From positions 1,488,001 through 1,552,000 of the forward strand of contig NZ_CP006269.1 in the NCBI RefSeq assembly GCF_000737535.1: 64,000 nt of DNA, in the 5' to 3' direction. This stretch comes from Synechococcus sp. KORDI-100. Its GTDB lineage: Bacteria > Cyanobacteriota > Cyanobacteriia > PCC-6307 > Cyanobiaceae. The translations under genes were made by a program, and so were the position numbers. Under the pieces are notes generated by a model that made no database searches, had not been told where the DNA came from, and was given only the letters and a program-made list of their open reading frames with translations. Positions 44,951 through 58,204 of this stretch are shown piece after piece (within the stretch, counting starts at the first letter, position 1; every line of letters starts with the position of its first letter).

Positions 44951-45138
44951 AGTTCAAACGAACTGCTGTGTTGGTGACGGCCTTTTTCTAGTGCTCTGAT
45001 CTGACTCTCTTTCGACTTGGGGAGACTGTCGTGACGGTGCCGTAGACCGGCCATGCAGCCGGAAACGAAGCCCCACTTTGTCACCCCTTCTGGTTCTTCC
45101 AGGTCGAACACTGGGGCTCGCACGGCATGGTGGTTCAC
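44947..45138 (-). CDS. Candidate small protein, start uncertain
   Basis: From a GTG at 45138 the frame reads HHAVRAPVFDLEEPEGVTKWGF and SGCMAGLRHRHDSLPKSKESQIRALEKG, which looks protein-like, whereas the upstream extension does not. 63 residues. No ATG is near the apparent N-terminus, so the gene may be 5'-damaged. Its stop overlaps the purK stop region. Confidence 0.35.
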   Translation of the reverse strand: MNHHAVRAPVFDLEEPEGVTKWGFVSGCMAGLRHRHDSLPKSKESQIRALEKGRHQHSSSFEL

Positions 45139-45697
45139 CCATTTAAAAAACTGTTCCGAACTGGCATTCCTGGGAGTTGACCCTTGTCTGGGTTTCTGAT
45201 GGCCGGACCGTTTGTTGATACACGTTGCTGAACTGACCAACGGAACGCACCGTCGAGCCGCTGATGACTGAGCTTCATGCTGGTTGAGAACGTGTTGGGC
45301 TGGCCGGCGACCGTGGCAGATCCAGAAGGCCGGTTTCAGAAGGTGCTCTTCAGCCTGTCCGGGATTCACCATTCGGAAAGTTGGCCATGGTGCTGAGAGA
45401 TCGACCAGAGTTGTGTTCTACCCACTGAATCGTCTCCGACAAAGACAACGATGCTTGATGCCAATGGATCACTGACGACAATGGAAACAGATCTTTGTTC
45501 TTGAGCTGGGACATCATCTAGGCACGGACCATTCATTGGATGAAGATGATGATGACTGGGCTGTTGAAAATTCCGTGACACCCACAGTTCAGACCTTCAT
45601 GGGATAGGCAAGTGGAGACCCAGCCGGGAACGTCATGGCATTGGTGAATGGACTCGATAGAGTGGTATCAATGCTGGAAATCGTTGAAGGGCTGAAA
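45139..45697. other. Gene-poor spacer upstream of small-ORF region
   Basis: About 560 bp with only short, unconvincing frames. It begins an accessory-looking zone that runs to 47.3 kb. No RNA gene or repeat was recognised. Confidence 0.45.
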
Positions 45698-45790: not shown

Positions 45791-45973
45791 ATTGAAAGTA
45801 GAGTTCACATCCACCACATATCTGGATGGCCATGGCAGTATTTATGTATGAACGTTTAGGCGTCTTCTGTTTAGGGGGATTTGGCCTGACGAATAAATCC
45901 CTCATTTGGGGGATGAACGCTGAGCTGATTACAGCGATATTGGATAGTGCCGATCCAATGGAGGAGAAGGTCA

Positions 45974-46336
45974 TTGACGACGTCGATCAAAAGCCCTGCC
46001 TCTCAAGCAAAGGCAGCTGATTCAAATACAGGTCGTATCGTTTCCAAGTCCACCCGCTCATCAATCAGTCTTGGCAGAGCACAACGCAAAGCAGCTGCCT
46101 GCGACCTGACCCCAGATGAGTGGATGGCGATTGGCGATGCAGGAATGCGTGCGGCTTATTTCATGCGTTACCAGGCCGGAATTCGTGATGCTTCCTTGCT
46201 TCGTTGTGATTCCTCGATCCGGATCGATGTGATTCGAATGGCTGGCGAGATGGGGATTGATCCACTGGCTTACGCCAACATGTGCCGTGCGGACAAGCAG
46301 AACCTGTGTCGTCGATATAACAATTGGAAAAAATAG
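45974..46336 (+). CDS. Protein of unknown function, basic N-terminus and helical C-terminus
   Basis: A 120-residue protein from a TTG start preceded by GGAGGAGAAGG. Residues 1-45 are Ser/Lys-rich and likely disordered. Residues 46-120 (CDLTPDEWMAIGDAGMRAAYFMRYQAGI, RIDVIRMAGEMGIDPLAYANMCR) look like a compact helical domain. No family recognised. Confidence 0.6.
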   Translation: MTTSIKSPASQAKAADSNTGRIVSKSTRSSISLGRAQRKAAACDLTPDEWMAIGDAGMRAAYFMRYQAGIRDASLLRCDSSIRIDVIRMAGEMGIDPLAYANMCRADKQNLCRRYNNWKK

Positions 46337-46710: not shown

Positions 46711-46863
46711 AAAAAAATGAGGACCAGTATACGCTGATCCTCGTTCTGCACCATAGTGTCCGGGCGTTCATTCCCGGTTGTCAGTCAGGACAAATCATGA
46801 ACCTCTCTGACATAGCAAGTGTCATCTGATTCGGGAATTTCCGCATCCCCTAAATGGGGGATT
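46711..46863 (-). ncRNA. Tandem small RNA candidate, copy 1
   Basis: Read on the minus strand from about 46863: a hairpin (CCCC/GGGG around ATTTA, 46847-46859), a TGTCAG/CTGACA stem (46779-46812), a CCGGG/CCCGG stem (46760-46777), then a 9-bp terminator hairpin (46719-46742) followed by A and seven Ts. The terminator pairs completely on the minus strand using one U-G wobble, while the plus strand would have a C-A mismatch, which fixes the orientation. Same order and spacing as copy 2, with loops and linkers diverged. No conserved ORF. Ends are approximate. Confidence 0.55.
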
Positions 46864-46901
46864 TTGTCGCGCGCCGGGACAGGTCAGACTGACGTCCCCA
46901 T

Positions 46902-47057
46902 AAAAAAAGAGGATCGGTGTACGCCGATCCTCTCTCAACCAATACATACCCGGCACACTAAATCCGGGTAGTCAATTGGGAAATGAATCAAACCCAACTG
47001 ACACCTCAACTCTGAGCGAACTTTGCTGATATCGCTTCCCCCAAATGGGGGATTTTT
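46902..47057 (-). ncRNA. Tandem small RNA candidate, copy 2
   Basis: On the minus strand from about 47057: hairpin CCCCC/GGGGG around ATTT (47038-47051), TTGGG/CCCAA stem (46976-46997), CCCGG/CCGGG stem (46949-46968), and a perfect GAGGATCGG/CCGATCCTC terminator hairpin (46909-46932) followed by seven Ts. The architecture repeats copy 1 about 190 bp away. The 5' hairpin followed by ATTTTT could also terminate plus-strand transcripts. No match to Yfr1 or other known cyanobacterial RNAs was recognised. Confidence 0.58.
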
Positions 47058-47545: not shown

Positions 47546-47917
47546 TCAAGGCCGCAGCTGGTCCACGGTCGTCTGGAGAGTTTCACGGTCGAGGTTGGTG
47601 ACCACGAAAACCTCCTGGGCGCTGCTGCCCTTCCGCGCCACAAGCTTGAAGCCACCGCGGATCGGGACAGAAACCCTCAGTTGCAGGGTCTGGCACCTTC
47701 CCCTGACCTTTGAAATCACCGCAGGGGTGATCGTCTGGATGCTGGGAAGGCGAGCGATGGCCTTGAGCCAGGGAATCAACCCTTCCACATAGGTGCTGTG
47801 TGTGATGACAACGCGGCCCAAATCGGTATCAAATCCCGAGATCTGGTCGAAGCTAGCGGCCATGGCTATGCCGAAGAGAGCACCGGGCCCTGGTGATGCT
47901 CCGATCCATCGATGCAT
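47546..47917 (-). CDS. DUF2103 family protein
   Basis: A 123-residue protein. GRVVITHSTYVEGLIPWLKAI and LRVSVPIRGGFKLVARKGSSAQEVFVVT match the cyanobacterial and archaeal DUF2103 family, predicted to bind metal. Function unknown. Start 47917 (MHRWIGA) overlaps the divergent gene's 5' end by about 25 bp; a longer frame reaches 47974. Confidence 0.78.
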   Translation of the reverse strand: MHRWIGASPGPGALFGIAMAASFDQISGFDTDLGRVVITHSTYVEGLIPWLKAIARLPSIQTITPAVISKVRGRCQTLQLRVSVPIRGGFKLVARKGSSAQEVFVVTNLDRETLQTTVDQLRP

Positions 47918-48123
47918 TGCGACAGGCCGTTTCCGGTCCTCTCGAGGATCGATGCGGTCCCAGCGCCCGTACATTGACGGTGGAGCTGCATGGTGCTGAG
48001 GTCCGTGGCCTGGCGATCTGTCCCGGACGCGTGTTCCGCTACGTCTTTGACAGTCGTCGCAAACGCTTTCGAACCGTTGACGTCCTCAAGCTGACCAAAG
48101 CAACACGAAAGCCTGCTGCCTGA
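47893..48123 (+). CDS. Small basic protein of unknown function
   Basis: A 76-residue protein (GTG 47893 or ATG 47896). RSIDALRQAVSGPLEDRCGPSARTL then a strand-rich part (FRYVFDSRRKRFRTVDVLKL). No family recognised. The 5' end overlaps the divergent DUF2103 gene. It ends 2 bp before the convergent clpS stop. Confidence 0.6.
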   Translation: MMLRSIDALRQAVSGPLEDRCGPSARTLTVELHGAEVRGLAICPGRVFRYVFDSRRKRFRTVDVLKLTKATRKPAA

Positions 48124-57652: not shown

Positions 57653-58204
57653 CAATGATGGGGACGAATCATGTCAGGCCAAACGATTGATCATGTGGTC
57701 GTCAGTGACGAAGACGTTATGGGTCAAGAATCCCTCCTGAACCATCCATGAACAGGAATCACGAGGGCAGGCGATGAACGCTATTGCGTTGCCTGGGAAG
57801 AATCGTGCTTCAGCGTGAACAACGCGATCAAGGGTGCATGAACCACACAACCTCATCTCCGCTTCGACGTAGTCCCACATTGCGTGGCAATCACGCTCCT
57901 GATGACGTTGACGGCAGGATCGACGCAGTCCCAGACGTCACTGGATACGAGAAGGTCAACCGCTAGAGCGTCGACGTCGTCTTCTGTGGCAGACAAAACG
58001 TTTCCCGTGCGGATTAACGATCAGGCCAGTGTTTATCTCGTTCGTTTCCACTCACGCTTGTCTCCGGCAACCTGTGCTTTGCACCAGTGATCAACATCAC
58101 AGGTTGCTCTGACTCAGCTCATCATGTTGAGCCGTGAAGTTGGAGATGGTGTGTGCATCGGAGGGGGACACCCCAAAGACACAAACCACACACCAGGCAA
58201 ATCG
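57653..58204. other. Gene-poor stretch before the RTX remnant
   Basis: A minus-strand frame of 68 residues (57674-57880) has no convincing features. The sequence contains no RNA gene or terminator that I recognise. Confidence 0.45.

Follow-up and report, generated by a model that had tools for sequence, protein, structure and literature searches.

The genome of the marine-type Synechococcus sp. KORDI-100 carries two tandem neighbouring copies of a short, structured RNA gene that is apparently undescribed. We analyzed 64,000 nucleotides of this genome (contig NZ_CP006269.1; this whole stretch is called the window, and coordinates without a genome label are positions in it) and regard the pair as a real tandem duplicate within a small, lineage-restricted sRNA family, next to a promoter element that had been mistaken for RNA. 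In our judgment the whole is likely to consist of two paralogous, activator-dependent sRNA genes that follow one another on the minus strand, have separate promoters and terminators, and give transcripts of about 100 nt.

The palindromes of the two minus-strand units start 191 bp apart (at 47053 and 46862), in agreement with the original prediction of a minus-strand tandem pair spaced by about 190 bp. A palindrome of the C5/G4-5 kind, a central stem, and a stem of the CCGGG type are found in each unit, together with the terminator GAGGATC..GATCCTC and its T7 run. Read 5' to 3', the order in each copy is the palindrome, 30 variable bases, and a segment of 104 to 105 nt made up of hairpin 1, hairpin 2, a linker, and the terminator. 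All features of the pair given below are on the minus strand.

In copy 2, the palindrome (TCCCCCATTTGGGGGA; 47037 to 47052) corresponds to the 5' hairpin of the original prediction; it is a candidate operator ahead of the promoter, a reading that draws on the fixed-distance −10-like box across the family of such sites. The −10-like box CAGAGT lies at offset 23 to 28 from the palindrome (47009 to 47014), with a putative transcription start near 47002. The modelled RNA (105 nt; 46902 to 47006) comprises hairpin 1 (10 pairs and a 12-nt loop; 46971 to 47002), hairpin 2 (TACCCGG/CCGGGTA; 46947 to 46970), and an intrinsic terminator (GAGGATCGG/CCGATCCTC with T7; 46902 to 46932). Copy 1 has its putative operator (TCCCCCATTTAGGGGA) at 46846 to 46861, the box GACACT at 46818 to 46823, a putative start near 46811, and a modelled RNA of 104 nt (46712 to 46815). 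Its hairpin 1 (46779 to 46812) pairs TGTCAG with CTGACA and adds three inner pairs (AGG..CCT/GG..CC), its hairpin 2 (CCGGG/CCCGG; 46760 to 46777) is one base out of register relative to copy 2 in the alignment, and its intrinsic terminator (46712 to 46742) contains a U-G wobble and ends in T7.

A third palindrome copy in the window (TCCCTCATTTGGGGGA; 45898 to 45913, plus strand) has GATATT at the same offset of 23 to 28 and points toward the plus-strand open reading frame (ORF) 45947 to 46336, for which no Pfam match was found. This ORF and a minus-strand DUF2103 gene (47546 to 47974) flank the region. An ordinary feature close by is 6S RNA (RF00013, 95.8 bits; 44957 to 45140, plus strand).

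Copy 1 and copy 2 are homologous. Their local alignment scored 209, against 68 ± 11.6 for dinucleotide shuffles (z, 12.2), and none of 500 shuffles scored as high; with the terminator left out, z was 6.2. Minimum free energy z-scores were −6.2 for copy 2 and −3.4 for copy 1.

A third RNA was seen in genome G022 (locus L054) by looking at palindromes in same-genus genomes. A covariance model (R1) was built from copies 1 and 2 and this third sequence and run on 34 genomes of the genus. Its sole strong match beyond its own members was G023:C1:1558596-1558702 (E = 3.1e-5 for that genome); this sequence, absent from R1, carries the palindrome variant TCCCTCAGTTGGGGGA at 1558550 to 1558565, a site that the pattern search had picked up. 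The palindrome TCCCYCAKTTRGGGGA or a variant of it stands exactly 30 nt upstream of the modelled RNA in all four members. The claim of a duplicated noncoding RNA family is supported, since R1 recovered a relative new to it whose palindrome is spaced as in the other members, and all three helices contain pairs changed on both sides. A second model (R2) of all four members gave strong matches at the same four places, which lie in 3 of the 34 genus genomes and in the same 3 of 400 family genomes, so that the proposed covariance-model check on cyanobacterial genomes did return clear relatives. These had E values below 1e-11, and all other matches had E values of 0.0125 or worse. Bit scores under R1 and R2 were 115.3 and 109.5 for copy 2 and 102.8 and 93.7 for copy 1, both being in the models by construction. 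Over 151 family genomes the strong matches of R1 were the window's own copies only; the filters were stricter whenever a search covered more than 40 genomes, and weak members can be lost under them. The copy number in G022 is a lower bound because that genome is 68% complete. A search of 50,697 phage records gave no match. Weak covariance matches were not counted as members: in 17 that were inspected, little sequence was shared and the 90 nt upstream held no palindrome even with 5 mismatches allowed, and locus L266 (G002, 18.3 bits) was likewise set aside.

The fold is common to the four sequences. Standard pairs fill 91.3% of the cells of their alignment (A5), compared with 28 to 52% in slid versions. 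Both sides have changed in 7 of 26 pairs (2 in helix 1, 1 in helix 2, and 4 in helix 3, the terminator, which would covary anyway), a count from four members and an alignment fitted to the model. Further standard pair types were no more numerous than in shuffles, of which 409 in 500 had at least as many. Once the terminator is left out, folding in the G022 and G023 members is only mildly more stable than in shuffles (z, −1.5 and −1.6). The earlier statement that pairing is kept by compensating changes therefore holds for these other pairs but fails for the example that it named, TGTCAG/CTGACA against TTGGG/CCCAA. That example is a misregister: TGTCAG occupies an identical position in the two copies, and TTGGG/CCCAA forms the inner section of the stem in copy 2.

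When the pair was compared by plain BLAST with its own genome and with relatives, the matches were to the palindrome and otherwise to short, chance-like stretches, and in this way the palindrome was recognized as a dispersed element. With up to 2 mismatches, TCCCCCATTTGGGGGA occurs in 33 of the 34 genus genomes; matches summed over both strands numbered 240, against 33 for the backwards control, sums in which a near-perfect palindrome can count on both strands. The window's own genome has up to 17 matches, strand-counted. Of 94 distinct sites, which were those within loci brought in by earlier searches and not the whole genus, 51 had a NANNNT box at offset 23 (22 bp beyond the palindrome) on one side or both; counted by clusters of flank identity, the figure was 34 of 67. 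The 30 remaining offsets in the range 9 to 39 gave a mean of 7.9 (clusters, 6.0) and a maximum of 15 (clusters, 12). Boxes on both sides at offset 23 were found at 3 sites (2 clusters). At many sites the palindrome is followed, tens of bases on, by the start of an ORF, and it also stands before protein genes; among six relatives' ORFs after palindromes that were run against Pfam, four matched (thioredoxin-like, RTX-repeat, phosphotransferase-type, and large helicase/RNase H-fold proteins). The −10-like box seldom begins with T. The boxes of the four RNAs (CAGAGT, GACACT, CACACT, and GAGACT) match the usual consensus in part only, and a generic sigma-70 scan found no minus-strand promoter at the pair.

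Palindrome pairs exactly 34 bp apart also occur (four listed, three in G029 and one in G021) and look like tandem operators before a repeated leader. Such pairs were seen in loci L253 (G021), L260, and L264 (G029), and also in L398, L403, and L407; a GGAGATGGTGTGTTCACGGG-like sequence follows at a similar distance. Among the matches listed in a scan of wider genome contigs, the palindrome was mostly in unrelated taxa. A scan of viral contigs gave 51 stretches, and in some of the contigs (loci L309, L311, L314, L319, L322, and L335) two copies of the exact 16-mer are separated by 25 or 66 bp. In the open-access literature searched, no description of the motif was found, and its core was seen only in an unrelated context.

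The palindrome is most likely an operator in DNA rather than part of an RNA. The original prediction had instead made it the 5' end of RNAs of about 155 nt that open with a C5/G5 hairpin and are transcribed from further upstream. We consider this unlikely. The palindrome can indeed fold and keeps a constant distance to hairpin 1 in all four members. Against this version, its spacing to a −10-like box is likewise fixed at many unrelated sites, and it is found before protein genes too. In copy 1, moreover, its innermost pair is a C-A mismatch on the RNA strand and a T-G wobble on the opposite (plus) strand, as suits an element of the DNA, and the 30-nt spacer between palindrome and modelled RNA keeps its length with little sequence conservation (11 to 19 of 30 positions identical pairwise). 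If the palindrome is an operator, the predicted 5' hairpin falls outside the RNA, which would start at or just before hairpin 1. Of the architecture first proposed, the central stem, the CCGGG-type stem, and the terminator with T7 are retained and the C/G hairpin is reassigned, so that the unit of about 155 nt becomes an RNA of about 104 nt plus a promoter of about 50 bp.

With the palindrome taken as an operator, its geometry suggests the kind of protein that may bind it. The canonical NtcA promoter has GTAN8TAC centred near −40.5 and a TAN3T box, with spacings of N21 to N24 listed (PMC9430850). The sites described here have a palindrome centred near −41, likewise with 8 bp between half-site triplets, and a −10-like box about 22 bp downstream. 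Because this geometry is that of the published NtcA promoters, we read the palindrome as a probable site for a CRP/NtcA-type activator. The half-sites are CCC/GGG and not GTA/TAC, which sets them apart from an NtcA promoter proper with its GTAN8TAC half-sites. The genome has six matches to a CRP-type helix-turn-helix, one of them below the curated cutoff, and none of these six genes lies near a listed palindrome. Tentatively, and with rather less confidence than we place in the RNA genes, TCCCYCAKTTRGGGGA and its near variants might be where an undescribed global activator of the CRP/FNR type binds as to its operator in the genus, activating mostly accessory genes and, in a few lineages, the sRNA pair as the RNA arm of the regulon.

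A reading in which the C/G hairpins terminate transcripts of the plus strand (TCCCCCAAATGGGGGATTTTT), with the real RNAs on that strand, is very unlikely. Terminator-like plus-strand matches do exist at 47036 and 46846, and the C/G palindrome of copy 1 pairs better on that strand. It is on the minus strand, however, that the stronger T-runs are found, behind GAGGATC..GATCCTC; a T-run is absent from many palindromes elsewhere, and the fold of the reverse complement is weaker in all four members. In copy 1, as had been noted at the outset, the terminator pairs by U-G on the minus strand only, sequence and fold agreeing on this point; the plus strand has an A-C mismatch there.

The patchy distribution and the tandem duplication would suit decaying, unexpressed copies of a mobile element. 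We hold this to be highly improbable, as folds, terminators, and promoter spacing are kept while the sequence diverges. Hardly plausible either are attenuators or 5' leaders of downstream genes in place of free-standing RNAs. Each copy does end in an intrinsic terminator, and in G023 a 77-codon ORF begins at the U-run; yet copy 1 runs toward the plus-strand ORF 45947 to 46336 and lacks a convincing gene on the minus strand shortly beyond it, what comes next after copy 2 is the promoter element of copy 1 itself, and the ORFs around the G022 and G023 relatives and in the window share nothing by eye.

The RNAs had been said to match no known family. Rfam 15, run at the gathering threshold on the window and the relatives L106 and L107, confirmed this in that no sRNA family matched them, and no described RNA matching them was found in the open-access literature searched. 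The best weak Rfam match was McaS/IsrA (RF00115), similar in having hairpins and a terminator; it was rejected because its 19.1 bits fall well short of the gathering score, 42, and its E value of 1.3 is at chance level. In gene layout the pair resembles OmrA and OmrB, which are tandem sibling sRNAs encoded by neighbouring paralogous genes with their own promoters in another phylum.

A further comparison is with Yfr103, described (PMC5069720) as an abundant marine picocyanobacterial noncoding RNA of 290 to 328 nt that has seven paralogues in CC9605 and homologues in several marine strains of Synechococcus and Prochlorococcus, and that is preceded by an imperfect palindrome at −58 to −29 of its start. 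The likeness lies in a paralogous marine Synechococcus noncoding RNA with a palindrome about 43 bp upstream of the start. By position, the palindrome of Yfr103 is centred at about −43.5, close to that of the pair, which spans about −50 to −35 of the putative start and is centred at about −42.5. That the pair are copies of Yfr103 is scarcely credible, for all the similar palindrome centre and multiple paralogues, because an RNA of 290 to 328 nt found in several strains and in multiple copies contrasts with one of about 104 nt, its ends being modelled, in 3 of 34 genus genomes; the two are set apart by length and distribution (PMC5069720).

Each modelled RNA (104 to 107 nt, its ends placed between the −10-like box and the T-run) combines a promoter-like element, a conserved fold, and an intrinsic terminator, as a structured sRNA gene would, and transcription is predicted. 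In the model that we favour, a dimeric regulator, probably of the CRP/NtcA type, would bind TCCCYCAKTTRGGGGA centred near −42, and RNA polymerase would use the weak NANNNT box 22 bp downstream of the palindrome. The transcript of about 100 nt would carry hairpin 1 at its very 5' end (with the loop of about 12 nt in copy 2), followed by hairpin 2, a short linker, and the terminator. It would most probably act in trans, with its two exposed stretches, the hairpin-1 loop and the linker, pairing with mRNAs; base pairing is the default expectation for RNAs of such build and not a result. The copies differ in precisely these two parts and may therefore have partly different targets.

The hairpin-1 loop region contains TTCAT in three of the four members, complementary by eye to ATGAA. 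Complements of the loops were searched in the own genome with up to 2 mismatches and checked for start codons. Copy 2 gave 31 matches (30 fetched as loci) and copy 1 gave 13, each including one self-match; the backwards control gave 2 and 1, low counts that composition may explain. Few matches combined an ATG with a long ORF, and this search of the own genome yielded no convincing start-codon target. The match at L388 is presumably at an epimerase-like start, and that at L390 looks internal to what we take to be a Rieske-type gene (names from the peptide). The four RNAs (47004 to 46971 and 46813 to 46780, minus strand; L054; L238) begin, by eye, with NTG, TC(A/G), NNN, (G/A)GN, TT(T/C); translated as a leaderless frame, this would give M/V/L-S-x-(G/R)-F. 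These shared triplets may only reflect the stem, or alternatively a very short leaderless ORF.

If this reading is right, an sRNA family is added to the marine-type Synechococcus and tied to a genus-wide promoter motif. The motif would be the wider and more interesting lead, as it predicts a regulon from sequence and offers a direct way to the regulator, and a patchy, duplicated sRNA would show RNA outputs being added to an existing regulon.

A dispersed upstream cassette was also observed, with a copy in the window at 58081 to 58181 (plus strand) and others in loci L398, L400, L401, L403 to L405, L407 to L409, and L411. It matched 7 times in the window's genome, 7 in G009, 16 in G022, 5 in G029, and once in G021; searches of G023 and G026 found none. 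Rfam on L398, L400, and L407 gave no match except a tRNA in L398. Several copies contain TGTGA-N6-TCACA, the CRP consensus as quoted in PMC2633013, followed by GGAGATGGTGTGT, and ORFs seem to come after.
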